Below are positions 2,236 to 21,731 of a stretch of DNA of 64,000 bases, piece by piece. The translations under genes were made by a program, and so were the position numbers. The DNA lies in contig CM060856.1 in the NCBI GenBank assembly GCA_030737835.1, forward strand, positions 5,605,892 to 5,669,891, read 5' to 3'. Each line of letters begins with the position of its first letter. Positions within the stretch are counted from its first letter, which is position 1. The notes below the pieces were generated by a model. The model was not told where the DNA came from, made no database searches, and saw only the letters and a program-made list of their open reading frames with translations. Source of the stretch: Acorus gramineus. Its lineage: Eukaryota > Streptophyta > Magnoliopsida > Acorales > Acoraceae.

Positions 2236-3338
2236 GTTCACTTTAAAATTTCACATGTGGATCATTTATTTCTGGGATGCTCTTACTCGAGGTTCATTTG
2301 GGGTAAGCTATTCCGTGATCTGTCAATTACTGGTCCGGTTCCTTGGAAATTTGCTCTCCTCCCAGGCTAGTTGGTTGCCACTACAGCTGATCCTCTCAAG
2401 AAAGATCTCACACACATTTTAATCACAACAACAATCTAGTCCATATGGACAGAAAGAAACAATAGGCTATTTTCTGGTAAGAAACAACACAAACTTGCTC
2501 TTTTGAGGAGAATTAAGGAGAGCATCCAGCTTCGGACACTCTACAAAAATTTTCATGTCATCACTTCCCCGCATCATGCAAAAATAATACATGCTTTTGG
2601 TGTAAAGGTCATCCCAAAGGAGCTGGTTACATCCATTGTGAAGTGGTTAGGTCCTGAGGAAGGATGGTTCAAGCTCAATACTAATGGCTCTCTTACAGAT
2701 GATCGAGGTGGTTATGGAGCACTAATTCGAGACAGCAAGTCGGAGTACATCATTGGATAGGCAGGCGGACTGGACCTCCCCTCCATTAATCTATTAGAGC
2801 TCAAAGCTATTGAATAGCGAGTCTTGCTAGGCCGTTCTGTTTTGTTTTAAAAATTGTGGATCGAAATTGACTCCTCCACTACACTGGCTTGGCTGACTGG
2901 AAAATGTAACATCCCATGGACTGCGTTTCGATCCCTTAGAACTACTCATTTTTCTCTAGCTCACCAAGATGTCTGGAAGGTGTCACACATTCCTAGAGAG
3001 GGAAATTCGTTAACGGATCTACTTGCAGCCTATCAATATGTGAGGGGAGAAACTACCATACAACCATCTCATATATGGCATGACTTGGCAGAGGCTATTA
3101 AGAAGGATAGGCACCCAGAAGGATTCATGAGAATGAAGTGATATAATAATAAGAGCTGTCCTGCTTGTTCTTAGATGAAAACAGGGGATTTTGTCAAACA
3201 CTAGGGTTTTGTTTGAAACTTCCTTAGTGTCTTTCTATTTTCTCATTTTTTTTTGTCCTTTGTAAATAATTGTGAATTTTGTACAAATTCTCACCTTTAC
3301 AGTAAAACTATTTTTTATTACCAAAAAAAAAAAACAAC
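2236..3338 (+). mobile_element. 5'-truncated LINE (L1-type) with RNase H domain and poly(A) tail
   Basis: This is the 3' part of a plant LINE ORF2. About 2270-2480 matches the zinc-finger/tail region after the reverse transcriptase (SIWTERNNRLFS in translation). About 2640-3080 is a plant LINE RNase H domain (RVT_3 type) with EEGWFKLNTNGS, RGGYGALIRD, LLELKAIE, EIDSSTTLAWL and IPREGNSLTDLLAA. The first catalytic Asp position reads Asn (NTNGS rather than NTDGS), and in-frame stops are present, so it is dead. The copy ends in an A-run at about 3325-3338. Bases before it (ATAACAAAGTTCAC) and after it (ACAACAACTCAC) resemble each other and the unoccupied sequence at 25527, which fits target-primed insertion next to repeat Y. 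It is the same family as the inverted copy at 61712-62805. Confidence 0.85.
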
Positions 3339-6300
3339 AACTCACAACTCTAGTTAAAGTGTAAATATCCGAATGTATAAATTTGTATAAAGGTACCCTG
3401 TAATTTTGATGGTCATGTATTTAATATATTATCCTAAGAGGGTATATATAGGCTTTATATAAATTCATCAGTAATCCCTTGGAGCAAAATATGTTAGTAC
3501 ATTGTTAGGTGAACGTGACATGAATGATATAATCAAGTAGGGCTGACTCGTCTGATACTCAATGCTCTAAAGATCTTATTGTTCATTGAATTTGAAGAAT
3601 GAATGGATTAAGAGTTACTGGATCAATCATTGGATCAGCTTAATTTGAACCGTGTTATCATCATGACATAATAAATTTGTAAAATATGAAATATTTTATA
3701 AAAACTTTTGCATAATTTATCAATTCTTAATTTTAAAACTTTTTAAGCTTGTATATAACATCATTATATGATTTTATTTTATTATATAATTAAAATATAA
3801 AATTTTTATTATTACGTTTTAGCAAATAATTAATCACAATTTTTATGAATAAAAAACCAATGAGCTTAATCAAACTGCAGTCGATTATAAAAAACTGTTG
3901 GTCCAATCGGTAGGTTGATTGGGTTTCACTGGTTTTTTTATACCATTACATATTGAGGGTAAATCGAACAAGTATTTGAAATGTGCGAAAGTTTAACTAG
4001 TTCAATAAAGGGTGGAATTTTAAAACATGAGTCATGCTGGAGAGAATTCTATTTTAATATATTAATATATTAAAATAATATGAATTTAGGGAACTCCCAC
4101 AAGTCATGGGAATCAATTGACATTGAAAAAGGCCCATTTGACAATCATGTTTTAATTTACTGGAACAATCAGGGAAATTCTAAACGTTATTAATCAGTTA
4201 GTTCTTCCTTGGTGTATATTTCTTCGAGTCATTGGAAAACATGACATCAAATTAACAGTATATATTTTTTTTTTGAAAGTATCAAATTAACAGTATTGTA
4301 AGCTATTAATTAATTCTATTTTTTTCTTGATACAGCAATAAGTTGTTACTTGTTACTAGTGTGACTTTCCTACTCTCATTTGTGTAATTTATTAATTAAT
4401 TTCATTTTTTTTCTTCTGATATAGCAATTTTTTTTTTTATTGAAGTGCCCAATTCTCCTTTGTCCGCAGTTCTTCGTTAGTGTTGAGTGGTTGGAACAGA
4501 AGACATAAACCCAACATACTGTAAGCTATTAAATAACCCTATTTCTTCTAATATGACATTAAATTATTTTACCATTCTAATTAATTAGAGTTTTAGATCT
4601 AGATAGTCATACACATAAAACACCTGAAGCATGTCAGGTCACTTGTTTTAGAGTAAAACATTGTTATACACATTTTTTTATAATCCAAATGCAGTCTCAA
4701 ATGTCTCATTAGCCATTTTATTTAATATAGAGCAGTATGTACTTTTTTCAAAGCGGACATCTCATTAAACAAGATTAATTATTTTTAACAAATTAAAGTA
4801 TGGGTGATTGTTTGTATATGAGGTTGTATATGTGTGACTCCTTTAACTTAGATGATATAATCCAAACATGAGTCATGGACAACGTGGTTCTTGTGAAGAC
4901 ATGAAGTCACAACAAGGCAGTTAGTGTCATAGTTGGTCGCTTAAATAAAGAACCTCAATAATATGTCTTCTTGGATACTCGAAAGATATATATGCTTGTT
5001 GATCATTTCTTTTTAAATATATGCTCCTTTGTCGTGATTTACTCTTGCAACTGTCAATATTCTCATCATATCCTACAATTTTTAATACAAGGATTTAATT
5101 GTATTAGGGCGTGATTCACACTTCATGGTTAACAATACTTATTTTTATACAAGCATTTTTTCTTCTCTATCGTTTTCTCATGAACGCCCATGCACAATGA
5201 TACATTGATATTGTAATGTCGGATTCATTGTCTTAATCATGATAAATGAATGAAATGTACGTGGAGCTTTTACTTGAAATACATAATAACATCTAATTAG
5301 AATAACTTTAATTTGTTATAATGTTACCATTATGAACTTTTAAGTTAGAATGTACACAAATGCGATAGTGTATATCATGGTCGATAACATTTTTTTGGCA
5401 TACAAATGGTTGATTTTATCATTTTTTTTTACCATAAAAGGAGTGAATTAAATATATGTTTCAATAATATATATGAAATGGGGACAATCTTATTATCGAG
5501 AGATAACTGGCCTGGTGTGGTTACGGAGGTCACAAAAAGTAAAACTTTTTTTTTTAAGTAATTTTTTTATTATAAATATAAAATTATAGAAAGTTATATA
5601 AATTTAATGAAACAAAAATTTATAGCCCAAATTCTGAAATTAATTATTGGGGTTCTTTTGCATGTATACGATTAAAAAACATGATATTTATTTTCATACC
5701 ATTACAAAAATCATATTGTTACACAAGTCTCACAATTTAGACTCCGTTGACAAGCTCTATGAAGTGTCATTCCCTCATTGGTTACTTGTTTAACTTTAAA
5801 AAAGATTAAAAATACAAAATACAATATTACCCTCATTTAAATACTACATTTTCTTTCCTCATTAAAGTCATCCTCACTCTTTTCGAAAAATAAATCAATC
5901 ATTCCATTTTAGAAACCTAGTTTTTTCCAAACCAAGTTGACATAAAAAAAAGAAGCTATTCATTACATTCGTGAAAATAAAACTAAAATTCAAATCCTCA
6001 GGATTTCTTAAAAAAAAAACTGAAAAAATGAAATTATTCAAAAAACCCATATCGTCAAAAACACCTAAAAATTAAGACCAAATTTTTGTTTATAATTAGA
6101 AAATAATGACGACAAAGAATAATCAACGTTTGTCGTTGTTAATTTGATGATTATTCGATTCTAATCATCAGTCAAAGTATTTGCGCTAGATGTAAATTTT
6201 TTTCGATGAATGCAAAAATAAAACACAAATTACAGTATAAAACAAAAGTTCAAAATAAAAGTTAGTTATATTTATAAGATGTAGCTTAATTTCAACAATA

Positions 6301-11701: not shown

Positions 11702-12045
11702 ATGTACAACGGAATCGGTTTGCAGACCCTTAGGGGTTCGGGTACCGATGGATACATCCAGGCGAACAAGTTCTTCGTGAGGCCCAAGTCGGGTCGCGTG
11801 GAGACGAGGGAGTTGGAGGCCGATCACGGCACCGGCGGTGTCTCCAGTAAGCCCAACAAGGAGATCCTTGAGCACGACAGGAAACGCAAGATCCAGCTCA
11901 AACTCCTCCTCCTCGAGGAGACTCTTCTTGATCTGGGTTTCACCGATTCCAAGGTTGCCGAGAGGCTTTCGGAGGCGAAGAGATCCCTTGAGGCCGAGTC
12001 CAACGCAGCTGATGTCTCTGCTGTTGCGGACAAATCCGACAAAAG
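11702..12045 (+). CDS. CWC21/SRRM2 homologue, exon 1 (cwf21 domain)
   Basis: Exon 1 encodes 114 full codons. The start [20 protein letters not shown] is the diagnostic N-terminus of the CWC21/SRRM2 family (human SRRM2 starts [20 protein letters not shown]). About residues 50-100 form the cwf21 domain: [18 protein letters not shown], then an acidic/basic helical stretch ending KRSLEAE. In yeast and animals this domain lies on the active spliceosome and contacts Prp8 and Snu114, so a nuclear splicing role is expected. The exon ends with AAAAG|GTAAC at 12045; two bases of the last codon remain and are completed by the first base of exon 2 at 21488. No frame damage is seen here, in contrast to the 3' part. 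The identification is very secure. Confidence 0.95.
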
Positions 12046-12329
12046 GTAACAATGCATATAGTAGATATGTTGTTCTGAAAGAACTTTTTTTTTGTGATTG
12101 GGATTGGTGATGTGTGTATCTTGTGAATTTGTGGTCATATGATAATATCTGATTTCTTTTTGATGAAATACTTGACTGTATGGAACAACCTTGCAGCACT
12201 AGTTGGTTATTTCTGTTTCGGTGAATATGTTATACGGGTAGTCGATTAGAATTTTCATGGACAAAATATCCATGTCCGTGGATTTGTAAATCTGATATTT
12301 TTTAATTAAGACTTTGGTTCATAAACAAA

Positions 12330-12610
12330 AGTTCACTGTTATACAATTAAGATATTATTTTGTAGACAAAAAGTCCAGCGTTATTCGATTGAGACATTAT
12401 TTCATGGACAAAAAGTCCAGCGTTATTCGATTGAGACATTATTTCATGGACAAAAAGTCCAGCGTTATTCGATTGAGACATTATTTTGTGGACATAAAGT
12501 CTAGTGTTATTCGATTGAGACATTATTTCGTGGACATAAAGTCCAGTGTTATTCAATTGAGACATTATTTCGTGGACAAAAAAATCCATTGTTATTCGAT
12601 TGAGACTTCT
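12330..12610 (+). repeat. 42-bp tandem repeat, left arm of the foldback element
   Basis: About six to seven units with period 42 bp. Each contains GGACAAAAAGTCC, which is itself a small inverted repeat, followed by GTTATTCGATTGAGACATTA. Because the period is a multiple of three, a frame stays open and reads as the 14-residue repeat HYFMDKKSSVIRLR; this is a by-product of the array and not evidence for a protein. Confidence 0.9.
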
Positions 12611-13444
12611 CATAATAGATATTTTATCATGTGTTATTCAATTTAAACAGGATTTGTGAAGACTTTCATAAGTGATGGATTCTTGTGGACTTTTGAGAGA
12701 GAAATATAAAGGAAAAAGTCATTTCAAAATCCCACCCAAATGGGTGGGATTCTCATGGACTTTTATTCCAACATTGTGAATATTTCTTTTTTTTTTCTTT
12801 TAACAAATCTCTTTTATGATTTTTATCCATGTCTTTCATATTTTTATTCACATTTTTTTCTTTATTTATCATCTTTTTTATGAATGTCCATATGTATGAA
12901 ATATTCCTATCACCTCATATGTTTGATGAATATATGAGAATGGTAGACTTTTTTACATAATAGATACCTAGATTATCCACAATTATTTTCTAAAATATAG
13001 ATTTATCATATATTTGATTATACGTATAATGTTTGATTTGATTTTTCTTGAAGATGTTTCTATTATTGTATAATATAGATGCATATATATATATTTTTAA
13101 AATGTTCTAACTAATGAGCAACAACGAAAGGACAATGAAGACCCTCCGGAAGTTTAAACTCAAGAGCAACAACGTCCAGATGCCAATAATTAGCGATTAA
13201 ATATAGCTAAACGAATGTAGGATGACCATGACATCAATATTCATGGTGAACTAATGTAATATTATCTAATTAAAAATAGTGTCTTTATCATGACATTCTA
13301 GCAATATACATTTCAGATATGTGAAAATTGATATTTACTATATTAAATTACATTTTATGTTGGGTATCAATAATTCATGTTGAATTTGAATATTTGAATT
13401 CTTTATTTGTTATTTTAAAATTTCAAAAACATTATTGTGTTTAT

Positions 13445-14110
13445 TAATAGAAATCCACATGTGAAAAGAGTCAATCTCCGAAAATCTCTAAAAGTCTGTG
13501 AAAGTCCATGAGAGTGATTTATGAAAGTCTGCAAATGTTTGTGAAAGTCTGTGAAAGTCTATGAGAGTCAATCTGTGAAAGTCTGTGAAAGTACATGAGA
13601 GTCAATATGTGAAAGCTTGTGAAAGTCTACGAAAGTCTGTGAAAGTCTGAAAAGTCTACAAAAGTCCATCACTTAAATAATGTCCACAGAAATCCATCAA
13701 AGTCCGTATCGACTACCCCCCCCCCCCCTAATATGGATGTTATCGGTGGAGTAAAGGGGGGTGGTCGATACGGACTTTAATAGATTCTTGTGGACGTTAT
13801 TTAAGTGATGGACTTTTGTAGACTTTTCAGACTTTGATAGACTTTTGCAGACTTTCACAAATTGACTCTCATGGACTTACACAGACTTTTGCAAACTTTT
13901 ACAGATTGACTCTTTCATAGACTTTCACAGACATTTGCAGACTTTCACAGACTGAGTCTCATGGACTTTCACATGGACTTTCACATATTAACTCTCATGG
14001 ACTTTCACAGACTTTAACAGACATTTGTAGACTTTCAGAAATCACTCTTATGGACTTTCAGAGACTTTTACAGACTTTCAAAGATTGACTCTTTTCACAT
14101 GTGGATTTCT
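13445..14110. repeat. Paired short-period arrays at the centre of the foldback element
   Basis: On the left (about 13445-13700), units of the type GTGAAAGTCTGTGAAAGTC and CATGAGAGTCAAT are repeated. On the right (about 13760-14110) the complement GACTTTCACAGACTTT is repeated. Between them lie 13 C (13716-13728), a 27-bp spacer and a GGGGGG run. A transcript across this stretch would close a long, nearly continuous hairpin. Confidence 0.85.
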
Positions 14111-15059
14111 ATGATTCTTTAGATATTCGTTAAAACATATGAGTAGATATCAATATTTCATACATATTCACATTCATAAAAAATTCTTCTTCATTAAAAA
14201 CAATCAATCTAATAAAATAAGAAAAGAGAAAAAAAATACCTTCTACTGAGAAAAATCTACAATGAGCAAACTTTTTTTTTTCTGTTATAGAGAGAAAAAT
14301 TCATAAGCTTTTATGGAGGGGATGGATGAGTTTTTAATTAGAAAGACAATAAAATAAGAAAATATACATATTATATAAAAATCATATATTACATCTCTTC
14401 AAATATAATGAAATAAAATCATAAATTATATTACTTAAAATAAAATAAAATAAAAGTAGTCATTATATTACTTTAAATAAAAAATGAAATAAAAGCAATC
14501 AGCATTTCTCATATTTGTATATATGCCTAAATATATCTTTTTATTTTTATATATGTTTAAACATTATAAAAATATATATATATATATGCATCTATATTGT
14601 ACAATAATAGAAACATCTTCAAGGAAAATCAAATCAAACATTATACATATAATCAAATATATGATAAATGTATATTTTTAAAAATAATTGTGGATGATCT
14701 AAGCATATATTATATAATATAATCTACCATTCTCATATATTCATCAAACATATGAGGTGATAAGAATATTTCATACATATGGACATTCATAAAAAAATGA
14801 TATAAATAAAAAAAAATGTGAATAAAAAATATGAAAGGCATGGGATAAAAATCATAAAGTAGATTTATTAAAAGAAAAAAAGAAGAAATATTCACAATGT
14901 TGGAATAAAAGTCCATAAGAATCCCACCCATTTAGGTGGGATTTTGAAATGACTTTTTTTTTTTATATTTATCTCTCTAAAGTTTACAAAAGTTCACAAG
15001 AATCCATCACTTATGAAAGTTTTCACAAATCCTGCTTAAATTGAATAGCACATGACAAA

Positions 15060-15365
15060 ATGTCTACTATGAGGAGTCTCAATCGAATAACGCTTGGCTT
15101 TTTGTCCACGATATAATGTCTCAATTGAATAACATTGGACTTTATATCCACGAAATAATGTCTCAATCGAATAACGCTGGACTTTATGTCCACGAAATAA
15201 TGTCTTAATTGAATAACGATGGACTTTTTGTACATGAAATAATGTCTCAATCGAATAACACTAGACTTTTTGTCAATAAAATAATGTCTCAATCGAATAA
15301 CACTAGACTTTTTGTCAATAAAATAATGTCTTAATTGAATAACACTGGACTTTTTGTCCACGAAC
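15060..15365 (-). repeat. 42-bp tandem repeat, right arm of the foldback element
   Basis: The inverted counterpart of the array at 12330-12610, with about seven units and its own substitution pattern (for example TTGTCAATAAAATAATGTC variants shared by adjacent units). The units have been partly homogenised within the arm, so the two arrays have evolved separately since the inverted structure arose. Confidence 0.9.
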
Positions 15366-15620
15366 CAAAGTCCTGATTGAAAAACACAAGATTTACAAAT
15401 CCATGTACATGGATATTTTATCCATGAAAATCCTAATTGACTACCCCCTTATAAATTGAGGCCCCGTTTGAATTATTTTACCATGAATCAATTTACGAGA
15501 TTCCATCATTTTACAATATCTTATTATTTTATATCTGAGGCCTAAGCTTATATTCGCTCCTTATATCTGAGGCAAACTCATGCCTCTTGGTCGATATTAA
15601 TCTGATGTTGTGTTCTGGTT

Positions 15621-16174
15621 TGTTGGAAAATTAATACATTTCTTTTAAAAATGTATTAATTAGTTTCTAAATAAAGATTAAAAATTTAATGGGATAAAAC
15701 GTTTTTATTTTTCGTAACGGCTGACAATGTTTAAATTTTAAACGTTGGAAATAAATATGATAACCGAAACGCTTACCATAAATGACGTGTGTAATTATTG
15801 TTAACGTTACACCTCTAACGATCGAATCTCTGTGCCTATAAAAAGGCCGCATTCACATGGATTCATATGAAGCAAAAAAACTAAGTGTTACACATGAAAT
15901 CCTCCACACAAAGAGAGTTCTTATTTTTCCTTTTTGTTCTTTTGGGCAATCAAGTCTGCGACCGGTTCGACTTCTCTTCCTTCTTGAACCAAGAAGAGAA
16001 CAACGAGGGCTGGGTGGTTTTATCTTGGGAACAGATCGTCGAGAACCTTGTGAGATTGAGGGGGCATATTCTATTATGAAAACAGCGTTACCACGTGACT
16101 CCATACCAGGCTCTTCTAATCCCTGTCTTCATAATCTTTCTATTTTTGCCTGATAAAAGCTCATATTTCCAACA
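15621..16174 (+). repeat. 5' LTR of the intronic LARD-like element
   Basis: 554 bp. Contains a CTATAAAAAGG TATA box at about 15836 and a leader beginning around ATTCATATGAAG. A short open frame in the leader region (Phe/Leu-rich) is present in both LTRs and is not considered a gene. Confidence 0.85.
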
Positions 16175-19100
16175 ATTTCATAACAGAATAATCTATTATC
16201 AGCCTTAATTTTCTTCCATGGCTTTTAACGATTTATTTAAATATGGTAATTAATATGCTTTAATAAGTTACCATATTTGACTGTTCAAATAATAATGAGT
16301 GCATTATGTGTGCTTCCATATGACCATCAGTATTCAGATTATAATTCTCTTTCGGGTCGACATTGGTGATAAAGCAGCATCTCTTTATTGTCCTTTATCA
16401 AGGATTTTATATGTATTATTTTATTATTAATTGCATTAATTGCATTTAATTTGTGCATTATTGTGATTCATTGATACATAAAAAAATATTCCAATTGAGC
16501 TGGCCTCCCATGTAAATTAAAGCAGCTGTTATGCTTTTAAAATAATTGTAAATGATTGCATGCAATACAGAGGTTTTTAAATATTTTTGATGTATTTTAT
16601 CATTACATTTTATATGTCCAGATGATTTTACATGAGTCATGATATAATATAATGTTCTAGATATTGGGTCTTCGTATTCTTTATGAACCGAGCCTATCTC
16701 TTGAGGAAATTGCCTCACTTAACCTTTACTCGATGCAGCTGACCACCCAAGGCATATCTAATTTTAGATGCATGAAATTAATTTATGCGTTTGCATGGCT
16801 ACTTGTGGAATTCTAAGTGTATTAGAATTTTTGGTAGATTTAGTTGATCAGTAATTGGTTTGATTGCTGGTAGATCTTTTTTTCCATTCTACTAGTTGTA
16901 TCAAATATTTATATATTATCCTGGGATAACATTTAAAAAGAGAGAGATCCTCTGTGTATAACATATCTAATTGTTTTTGGTTTATTTATTTATATATATA
17001 TATATATAATGATTGCATGTATTTAAATGTTTAGTTTTAGAACGTTTAAATAATAACGAGTATGTTGTTATATATTTATGTGCATTTTTATTGAGTTACA
17101 TGAAACATCTGCATTAATAAATTGCAATCATTATGGGGTCCTTAAAATAATGTGCTGCATTTTCAAACATTTTTGTAACATTTATAATGAACTATGGTTA
17201 ATGTGATTTACGTTTTTATGTGCTTATGTATGATCATTATTATTATTCTTGTTCTTTCCATCGTGGTTAAATTAAATTAAATTATTATTATTTTGTGTCT
17301 GTAATAATGGTTTAATTTGTGATCATAGCCTGATTTTTTATTACATTCTAACGATGAGGTGAAAGAACATGGATATATAGAATGCAGTCAGATCTCTGAG
17401 AAAGACTATATCAAATTTTCAAGGGCAACAATATATGTTATATGAGGCTATTGGAATTTTCCTCTGATATTTTTTTATGATCATTCTTTTGAAAATCTCA
17501 ATATACTTCAATGATATATTTCAAGGCCAGGATTATATCACTCATCATATGCAATCGGAATATTATATATGGAATTATTATTATTCTGGACTTATTGGCA
17601 TTCTGGATTCTTTCATATTTGAAGCAAATGGTCTACATATTCTTCTACAGATAATCAGATATCATATATTCTGATTATCAATTCAAGGGAGAATATTATC
17701 TTATACTGGGACTTTTCATATTTCAATGCATATGGCATGTATATTATATTGCTTCCATATTTTATTGAATATTATATTTTAGATTTTCTACAAGGAGAAG
17801 CATGACATATGATCCGTTTATGTAAGGTATGTGCAAACCTTTTGATTACATATTGCATACATTTATTCCGGTATGGTAATCATGATCATATGCTAATAAC
17901 TTTGGTCAAATAACATATTTTATATATTCATGACAGTATGATGGTTATGTGTAATTCATATATTTATGTGCTGAATTATGACCAAGTTATGGGAATTAAA
18001 AGCATGTGATGGGTAGAGAAAACTGAAATGAAGTGTAAATGTATTACATTTATGTTTTTATTCATTTGAAAATAATGATAATTTATGAGTAGAGATTTAT
18101 TTCATGATTACCTCCTAATTAAAAATGCCATGCATTTTTTCATGTAATAATTTGTGAATTCATATTAATGTGGGGGTTATAAATGTGACTAAGTTATGAG
18201 AATTTAAATTCTGTCATTTGTGGAGTAAACTTAGCATATAAAATTGTTGCTATATATATGCTCATTTTTTATTAGAGATATTTGTTTCATTATTATTTGA
18301 AATTGAGAATTTGATGAATATATTCATGAAATAATATGTGGGGGACATATTTGAATATATGAAATAAATGAGCATTATGTTTTCATCTTATAGCATGTTA
18401 ATCAAGTCGAGAAATTATGAGTATTAAAAAGGGCTGGATGTATATTATAATTATATATTCATTAGTGAATATTGCATTTCATAAAGCATGTTATATTATG
18501 AATTGTGGGGGTTGTGAATAAATTCACTTATAACTTAAAAAAAGAATTGTACTAGCGAGTAGTTTGGTTAATTTTTTCATTTAGAGGAATAGGATACTGT
18601 GAGTTTATACTCTTAATGGGATCTCATACAACATGGTGTAATCTCACTTGATTTCATCAAGTTAGTGAACAATATTGCATATCCACTTACTAGAGGTCTA
18701 GCGAGGAGGCTAGTCTTTTCTACATCGAGGGGGATGAGTTTAAAGCCCATAATGTAGTACCACAGTGGACACCCTATCTATCCAAATGGAGATCCCATGA
18801 GGAAAGGTTCAAAGGGAAAAGCAAACTGACGTGTATCTATGTTAAGTACTGAAATAAAAATGAACTTCAATGTTTTATTTAAAGAACATCCCTATGGTGC
18901 TAGTACTTTTAACTGTGTTGGTATAGGAAGAGCAATCACTCTGAATGAATTCAAGGCCTCTAAGGTAGGGTGTAGCACCGCACAGTGCACCCTTTGAGAA
19001 TTCTACTATGTGAGTGTGATTGTGGGGCCGCGATCTATGAGAACAGGGGCTGATCTCTAAAGCACTCATGAAACAAGATAAGTGTAACGGCCGTAATACG

Positions 19101-19331
19101 CACACCGATAAAGAACCTGGTCTAGTGCTTATACTGTGTTGTGTAACTTACTAAAGTTTGATCAAAAGGGTCTAGTTCAAGACCTAGTTCACTACGTCCC
19201 TTCAAATGGAAGTTGGTTAACACTAAGTGAGGTTCAAAGCCCTAAGCTACCTCACCGAATGCACAGTATTGTATCGCCCAAATTTATTTTTTATTTTCTT
19301 TATAATAAAATTATTTAATCTTGTGGGGGAT

Positions 19332-19888
19332 TGTTTGAAAATTAATACATTTCCTTAAAAAATGTATTAATTAGTTTCCAAATAAAGATTAAAAAATTAA
19401 TGGGATAAACGTTTTTGTTTTTCGTAACGGCTGACAACGTTTGAATTTTCAACGTTGGAAATAAATATGGTAACCGAAACGCTTACCATAAATGACGTGT
19501 GTAATTATTGTTAACGTTACACCTCTAACGGTCGAATCTCTGTGCCTATAAAAAGGCCGCATTCACAGAGATTCATATGAAGTGAAAAAACTAAGTGTTA
19601 CACCAGAAATCCTCCTCACAAACAGAGTTCTTATTTTTCCTTTTTGTTCTTTTGGGCGATCAAGTCTGCGACCGGTTCGACTTCTCTTTCTCCTTGCACC
19701 AAGAAGAGAACAGCGAGGGTTGGGTGGTTTTATCTTGGGAACAGATCGTCGAGAACCCTGTGCGATTGACGGGGCATGTTCTGTTCTGAAGACAGCGTTA
19801 CCACGTACGTGACTCCATACCAGGCTCTTCTAATCCCTGTCTTTATAATCTTTCTATTTTTGTCTGATAATAGCCCATTTTTCCAACA
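19332..19888 (+). repeat. 3' LTR of the intronic LARD-like element
   Basis: 557 bp. The copy of 15621-16174 in the same orientation, directly after a polypurine tract and ending CCAACA at 19888. Confidence 0.85.
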
Positions 19889-19893
19889 TGGTC

Positions 19894-20499
19894 TCCCCCT
19901 GACAATAGGGGTTGTAGATGTTAAACCAAATGCTTCACTAATATCAACATCCAAGAAGATAAACATGAAGATTATCTGGAATTATGAGTTCGAGCTTTGA
20001 GTGTAACCATATATAAGTACTTTTGGAGATGCTAAAAAAATTTTAGTTAGCAAAAAAAGAAAAAGAATGAACCACATCTTTTTGGTTGACTTGGAATTTT
20101 CGTGTAGTATGGGATGGGCTACTTTCATTTTGCATACATAAGCTCTGGTTTCTCATAGAACACCAGAAGGATCACTCATGTATCTAGGTATATTAGATGA
20201 TACTTTTTGAGTGTTTTGTGGGTTACAAATCAAAATAAACAATTGCCCCATAATAAAATTTAGATGCCACCCGAAATAGTTCTAATCAAACTTTAATAAT
20301 ATTTTTGTTGTTCCTTGAAAGCCGAATACTACCAACAAGTGATTCAATTCGTGCTCCAACATGCAACATGGGAGATCAATCATGTAAATCTTTCCTTCAT
20401 GGTCTTGTCATGTTTCTTGCTGAATTTGTGGAAGAAATTCCATACATTCCCTGGAGAGGAGTGAAAGTGTTCATCCTACCCCAATAAAAGACCAATTTT
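19894..20499 (+). other. Remaining intronic sequence
   Basis: Intron DNA after the LTR element. A 60-codon open frame at 20305-20487 has no recognisable domain. Part of this stretch may belong to the LINE whose tail follows, since insertion of a 5'-truncated copy would start somewhere here. Confidence 0.4.
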
Positions 20500-20984
20500 C
20501 CCCACACCTCTTGGCTGACCCCACATTGCACCAAAAACTATGTTCTTTTGTTTAGTAAGGAAAAAAACATGTTTCCCCACTGGTTGGTTCCCCATGCGGG
20601 AGTCCGAAGTTCTCTCGTGAAATTCCAATAGTTGGTTCCCCATATAGTATGTTGGTGCATTTGGCTAACCTGCAATGGATGTGTTTTTCAAAAAAAGAGA
20701 TTTTATTTGGAGAACACGTGGATGATGATTTCGTATATGCTTAGAAATTGGGTGGAAATGATTTTGAAGTTGATCCTCCTTCCTCGATTATGGGTAATCT
20801 TTGGTTTGGGAGGTTACCATCGTGGATCCTTTGTGGGTGTGGAGGGCTCTTCCTTGGCCTTCCTGTTCTAAATTGAAATTCTTTAAGTTCAATTTTGTAT
20901 TGAGATCCCTTGTCTTCTTATGTTAGTGGGTTTCTATATGAATAAATTTGGTCTTATATATTATTCAAAAAGAAAAAAAAAAGG
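20500..20984 (+). mobile_element. LINE 3' end fragment in CWC21 intron 1
   Basis: About 20630-20760 translates as a typical plant LINE ORF2 C-terminal segment (WCIWLTCNGCVF, then a helical tail with MLRNWVEM). It is followed by a GC-richer 3' region, an AATAAA-like word and an A-rich tail (about 20969-20984). The match is by general style and not to the family at 2236 and 61712. Boundaries are approximate. Confidence 0.55.
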
Positions 20985-21487
20985 TTCTCATTCTTAATAT
21001 CTTATACGGGTGGTTGTGTTTTTGTTCAGCTCTATAGTGGATGTACTGTAACCAATATTGGTGGGATGCAGGCCACTCCTTGTATAATTAACTGTAGTAC
21101 TTCTGAAAAACAAAAATAATTTTTCTAGGTTTGAAAAAGAAAGAATATCAGTAAATCCTTTTCATTTTCTTATGGATAGTGTCATGGATTGCTATCTTTA
21201 TCACTGAGACTGCTGCTAGCATGCCTCTCATGATTTAATTTTAATATATAAATCTTTGATGTTTGATGTTTTAAATTGGAAGGGTCTTTTACTGATCTTA
21301 GAAGTGTTGAAGAAATTGCATTTACTTGTGCTTAGTGCTTCCAACGCCCATACACCCACTTTTTGGTAATGGATGAGTGTCAATGTTTGGAATTTGTACA
21401 CGTTTTTTTTAATTGATATTGCTTAAAATCAAGGAGAAAAGTTAATCAATGTTTTCTGTTGTTTAATGGGACTTGTTTTTCTTTCAG

Positions 21488-21731
21488 AGTATCTGAAACA
21501 CAAACGCATCAAATCATTGCAAGGAAAGAAAAGCAGCTGGAAACTTTAAGAGATGCACTTCGGATTTCGAGAGTTGATGAGCCATCAGGGCTGGGGATTA
21601 CAGAGGAAAAGGAACCGAGTAAAGTGATTGATTCAGATTCAGAAGAAATTGATGTTGAGAAACTGAGCACAGGACAAGAAAATGGTAATAAAAAAATTCA
21701 AAGAGAACAAGAGAAAGATTGCATTGGTTAG
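21488..21731 (+). CDS. CWC21/SRRM2 homologue, exon 2 up to the first in-frame stop
   Basis: The first base completes an Arg codon split by the intron, then the protein continues VSETQTHQIIARKEKQLETL, which matches the conserved segment after the cwf21 domain in the family (human SRRM2: VTETHQLAELNEKKNERLRAAFGIS). The frame closes with TAG at 21729-21731, giving a predicted protein of about 195 residues. It contains the full conserved core and ends within an acidic/Lys-rich linker. Plant relatives generally go on into a long Arg/Ser/Asp-rich tail; here that tail is still visible downstream but out of reach of normal translation. A GTAATA donor-like word at 21684 could permit splicing round the stop, but no obvious acceptor was identified. 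A short product would resemble yeast Cwc21 in layout. Confidence 0.85.

Follow-up and report, generated by a model that had tools for sequence, protein, structure and literature searches.

A tail-to-tail pair of Harbinger-type deletion derivatives in intron 1 of a cwf21-domain gene of Acorus gramineus and its predicted hairpin RNA

The stretch of Acorus gramineus DNA analysed here, 64,000 nucleotides in length and referred to as the window, contains a gene whose first exon encodes a cwf21 domain (Table 1) and which we take to be a CWC21 homologue, the tested part being the domain. Exon 1 ends at a donor GT at position 12046 and exon 2 begins in frame at position 21488, both splice sites being predictions read from the sequence. 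A foldback of 3.2 kb had previously been placed in the intron of a splicing-factor gene, and the Pfam match on exon 1 together with the frame-keeping predicted splice sites bears out this location. Exon 2 runs into an in-frame TAG at 21729-21731, beyond which this frame continues with an extended run rich in K, R, S and D; the tail of the gene looks truncated, or another splice form would be required. Intron 1 also carries an LTR-retrotransposon-like insertion (window 15621-19888) with direct repeats of around 555 bp, which lie 3.7 kb apart. These repeats start with TGTTGGAAAA and TGTTTGAAAA, both end with CCAACA and are 88-94% alike across three matched parts; the list of open reading frames contains none of at least 100 amino acids between them.

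The foldback consists of two inverted arms, 12236-13728 and 13756-15446, each of which has GGGTAGTC-type tips at its bounds. The local alignment between the arms reaches a score of 1499, whereas 60 random segments of the window score 48 at most. The description of two inverted arms with inverted tips and a 27-bp spacer in the earlier note is confirmed. When the arms are taken as 12236-13720 and 13750-15446, identity extends to 1255 of the 1428 aligned columns, and gaps take up 326 positions. This similarity is confined to the outer parts of around 860 bp (12236-13094 and 14576-15446; 91.9% identity) and the inner parts (13447-13728 and 13756-14112; 91.3% of the aligned bases identical, 89 gap positions). 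The interiors (about 13108-13446 and 14112-14560) are unrelated to each other and match different relatives. The term 'near-perfect', which had been applied to the foldback, therefore does not hold, as the arms are around 91-92% identical in their outer and inner parts and have unrelated interiors. Both elements contain 42-bp tandem repeats with a TGGACAAAAAGTCCA-like near-palindrome, and similar repeats appear as repeated frames in five of the loci examined elsewhere in the genome (L038-L041 and L043).

Table 1. Positions of the host-gene exons, the intron and the parts of the inverted pair in the window.
Feature	Position	Strand	Basis or remark
Exon 1, cwf21-domain gene	11702..12045	+	Pfam PF08312, E 3.8e-9 on the 11702-12046 translation; splice frame
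Intron 1, containing both arms, 9.4 kb	12046..21487	+	GT donor, CAG acceptor; frame runs on KR-VSETQTHQIIARKEKQ
Exon 2, cwf21-domain gene, as far as the in-frame TAG (21729)	21488..21731	+	Frame
Left element, Harbinger-type deletion derivative with transposase 3' remnant	12233..13728	+	Tips, genome copies, tree, interior
Right element, distinct deletion derivative in opposite orientation	13756..15451	-	Tips, genome copies, tree, interior
Spacer between left and right elements, 27 bp	13729..13755	.	From left C-run to right G-run
TTA ahead of left element, at the expected position of the target-site duplication	12230..12232	+	Right side TAA (13729-13731), one of three bases different
42-bp tandem repeats, left element, family D2	12285..12620	+	
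42-bp tandem repeats, right element, family D1	14992..15427	-	
Decayed piece of a DDE transposase C-terminus, in the non-pairing left interior	13104..13256	+	84% match to the L009 remnant

The affiliation of the elements was traced through a protein remnant in the interior of the left arm. This remnant (C10:5618995-5619147) contains three stops and matches residues 19-69 of a remnant in another copy, L009, in which the corresponding piece is open over 69 amino acids and has 111 matches in the genome. The 69-residue piece on its own matched no Pfam family; however, in the copy L040 it forms the end of a 198-residue frame, flanked by a left tip and a right tip, with a DDE_Tnp_4 domain (PF13359, E 1.2e-12). 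A similar frame (PF13359, E 2.5e-12) occurs with a right tip in L044, for which no left end was matched within its 6.5 kb, and a further PF13359 match is located at C4:13095427-13095846, within L043. Since the frame of L040 lies between the same tips, the arms in the window are internally deleted members of this family. Autonomous PIF/Harbinger copies carry a second, Myb-like open reading frame. A PF13359 match beside L008 was discarded as a possible partner, as it sits past a decayed left tip and apparently belongs to another element. At many places in the genome, a PF13359 transposase family is present with open frames of 225 amino acids in dozens of the 150 matches listed (150 of 410 candidates were scored), and that transposase family may have been active recently.

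Target-site duplications were assessed using a fixed rule, which was written after the element ends had been seen and which counted only copies with both tip motifs. Under this rule, duplications of 3 bp agree in 11 of 21 elements compared to 6.1 expected by permutation (p 0.003), and the agreeing ones are mostly TTA/TAA, with GTA also among them. Neither element of the window matches under the same rule (left TTA/TAA, right TTA/TTT); the right element is flanked by TAAA on either side (13752-13755 and 15452-15455) only after a shift of one base. PF13359 in combination with 3-bp TWA duplications is what we take to define PIF/Harbinger transposons, and an origin from Mutator, hAT or CACTA elements was dropped on the basis of the duplications and the PF13359 match.

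To place the arms among their relatives, the genome (398.6 Mb in 137 contigs) was searched with a query of the first 565 bases, for which 40 of 503 candidates were scored and 41 matches listed, corresponding to 39 places besides the window. Of these, 20 were taken as loci of 8-8.5 kb and seven more as loci of 3.6 kb (L002-L008), and one further place was added; the sample comprises the best-scoring copies and is not a random one. The outer parts of both arms map onto one common place in the other loci. A tree was calculated from around 490 bp, excluding the tandem repeats, with 24 rows, namely the two arms plus 22 of the 27 loci; L003, L013, L015, L016 and L019 were omitted because they contained no match of the set length.

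Two adjacent arms in inverted orientation could have arisen by inverted duplication of a single element on site, for instance by aberrant repair, as has been reported for Mu killer, and the rarity of adjacent tail-to-tail arms under random placement would favor such an event. The tree, however, never joins the arms: a sister pairing occurs in 0% of 200 bootstrap replicates, and the right arm falls inside a group of 14 rows (95/96), whereas the left arm lies outside that group. Over the tree region, identity between the arms is 92.5%, while the nearest other copies reach 96.1% and 94.4%. Of the 22 copies, 18 resemble the left arm more than its partner does, and 15 resemble the right arm more than its partner does; among the other copies, 74% of 231 pairwise comparisons show a similarity equal to or above that of the two arms of the window. 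The tree is weak in that 17 of its 21 inner branches are open and its bootstrap had not stabilized, and a count of changes is uninformative with two labelled rows, as 500 of 500 shuffles are equally low. Furthermore, the two arms represent distinct deletion derivatives, and their interiors are unlike. For the left interior (339 bp), matches of 294 bp or more exist in 19 loci; these correspond to 17 distinct places, L037 and L042 being repeats of L009 and L044, respectively. The best match of the right interior is L007, with 87% over 334 columns. Inverted duplication of one element is rejected on the basis of the tree and of the interiors, and we consider it very improbable.

The structure could also be a single foldback transposon with inverted ends of around 1.5 kb, which moves as a unit of 3.2 kb. 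Foldback elements typically have long inverted arms, and on general grounds the arms of the window fit this type; in addition, TTATA is found at both outer flanks. However, TTATA is the customary target-site duplication plus left end of single copies and is therefore normal for them, and all 20 of the 8-kb loci contain the element family in a single orientation. With a probe for the junction, 40 of 348 candidate places were scored, of which 39 are single right tips, with both halves of the probe on one tip, and one is the window. The exact pattern of two tail-to-tail tips was found at no place in the whole genome with gaps of 0-30 and at one place, the window, with gaps of 25-55; a decayed junction could escape detection, since the tip patterns tolerate no mismatch. 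At the exact patterns used, a second inverted junction is lacking, and a mobile foldback unit, of which we think extremely little as an explanation, is largely refuted by a junction that occurs only in the window among the places scored or matched exactly. The earlier note had favored two elements over one 3.2-kb unit, a view that would have been contradicted by copies always found as the full unit; the copies examined elsewhere do not take that form, and the reading is supported.

Very probably, the pair therefore consists of two non-autonomous PIF/Harbinger-type deletion derivatives, which inserted independently and in opposite orientation 27 bp apart in intron 1. If insertions were placed uniformly, 0.005-0.01 tail-to-tail pairs no more than 60 bp apart would be expected at an assumed 348-503 copies and 0.34 at 3000 copies; a pair this close is improbable by random placement, so that clustering of insertions must be assumed. 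One of the 20 8-kb loci (L013) contains two distinct copies that share one orientation, a sample that is too small to judge clustering. The copies in L004 and L014 lie around 14 kb apart on C2, have common downstream sequence and group at 100/99, and they are probably the result of a local duplication. In L045, which was chosen since a second match already showed there, a family copy at 2780-4832 is nested in an older copy of opposite orientation, the pieces being 74-85% identical to the left arm of the window. The older copy is interrupted at the identical element position on either side, and members of this Harbinger-type family therefore insert into one another. Jiang and Wessler (2001) reportedly described clustered and nested MITEs in plants. 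For the DcSto MITEs of carrot, the sections of the source used here state that members of the same family insert into or beside each other (PMC3695323). Nesting of this type is thus also seen in the family described here, but the pair in the window differs from it in being arranged tail-to-tail at a distance of 27 bp. Intronic inverted pairs and clustered or nested MITEs are already known in print, as judged from a literature search that was not exhaustive for this family.

An RNA of the 3211 bases of the foldback is predicted to fold to -1657.6 kcal/mol, compared to -598 to -642 kcal/mol for five dinucleotide shuffles (mean -621), and the single arms alone fold to -350 and -325 kcal/mol. The predicted fold contains 1123 pairs between the arms, and 17 of its helices are perfect over 21 bp or more. 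The hairpin stem of more than 1 kb, which had been proposed for the pre-mRNA of the host gene, is borne out at the level of a fold prediction. Transcripts of the host gene would carry this long hairpin until intron 1 is removed, and most of the hairpin RNA would presumably be spliced away without consequence. A fraction could be cut by DCL2, DCL3 and DCL4 into siRNAs, and such siRNAs might add to RNA-directed DNA methylation of the element ends, at the window as well as at other copies. Production of siRNAs specifically from the folded host transcript is a tentative proposal, which we rate as rather doubtful.

As to the consequences of the pair, an effect in cis is conceivable: the repeat-laden intron might be methylated and the host gene thereby altered in its splicing or polyadenylation. 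The LTR pair in the same intron speaks for this possibility, and the in-frame TAG at the end of exon 2 is compatible with a relaxed constraint; however, the predicted splice sites are intact, and we regard a cis effect as unlikely.

Alternatively, the locus might act in trans, with siRNAs from a hairpin driven by the host promoter keeping the whole family silent. The highly stable predicted stem would suit this role, and 1035 of the 2025 distinct 21-mers of the stem are present in at least one of 33 other loci, all 33 of which share some of them. Dispersed repeat families are expected to yield Pol IV siRNAs, and on this general knowledge siRNAs against the family would be expected even without the locus in the window, which weakens the case. 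In addition, none of the 786 21-mers of the transposase segment of L040, a single copy, occurs in the paired stem, while eight occur elsewhere in the foldback; any siRNAs would consequently reach the element ends and not the transposase mRNA, for which post-transcriptional silencing by stem siRNAs is not expected from these sequences. Precedents for hairpin-derived siRNAs are described, as far as the portions of the sources used here go, for WRKY45-1/TE-siR815 (PMC8616336) and for endoIR-siRNAs (PMC4687873), whereas read-through from the gene flanking Mu killer accompanied failure of silencing (PMC3440606). Silencing of the whole family in trans seems quite improbable. A still more specific model, in which the promoter of the splicing-factor gene became a steady source of hairpin siRNAs by the chance arrival of two independent insertions, and in which these siRNAs methylate the ends of the whole Harbinger family and so control the substrate of transposition, that is the element ends, and not the transposase mRNA, would have to be called a long shot.

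Three known systems resemble the locus in part. In rice WRKY45-1, two opposite intronic MITEs go along with TE-siR815, which acts by RNA-directed DNA methylation, according to the part of a review considered here (PMC8616336). As in the window, two opposite elements of MITE or deletion type are located in an intron; however, the siRNA and its effect were tested by experiment for WRKY45-1, whereas the pair in the window is known from its sequence and a predicted fold, and its elements are of the Harbinger type and around 1.5-1.7 kb long, unlike the WRKY45-1 MITEs. For maize Mu killer, read-through originating in a flanking gene had been put forward as the source of a hairpin. In the portion of the article that we refer to, Skibbe et al. 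instead described antisense transcripts initiating within the Mu killer locus where silencing took place and sense read-through in the plants where it failed, although they concede that minor transcripts of greater length may serve as hairpins (PMC3440606). The occurrence of read-through in non-silencing plants argues against presuming that host-driven read-through is effective. Both loci have inverted transposon parts adjoining a host gene as a proposed source of hairpin RNA (PMC3440606). On the same partial account, Mu killer is one rearranged MuDR element covering transposase coding sequence, whereas the pair in the window comprises two independent elements, and the stem of the latter, unlike the Mu killer hairpin, lacks the transposase segment tested. 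The Arabidopsis endoIR-siRNA locus IR71 produces a very long stem-loop transcript, which is processed by DCL2, DCL3 and DCL4, as stated in the excerpted text of PMC4687873. For the window, a very long stem-loop is a predicted fold, with a stem that is around 92% identical and with unpaired interiors, and siRNAs from it are a proposal.

The pair in the window is a clear natural case of how a long hairpin locus can arise by chance from two ordinary insertions. The mismatches of around 8% in its paired parts are enough to assign small RNAs to this locus. If no siRNAs are made from it, long intronic foldbacks can be harmless; if siRNAs are made, the locus could be used to test the idea that methylation of a dispersed transposon family can start from an intronic hairpin.
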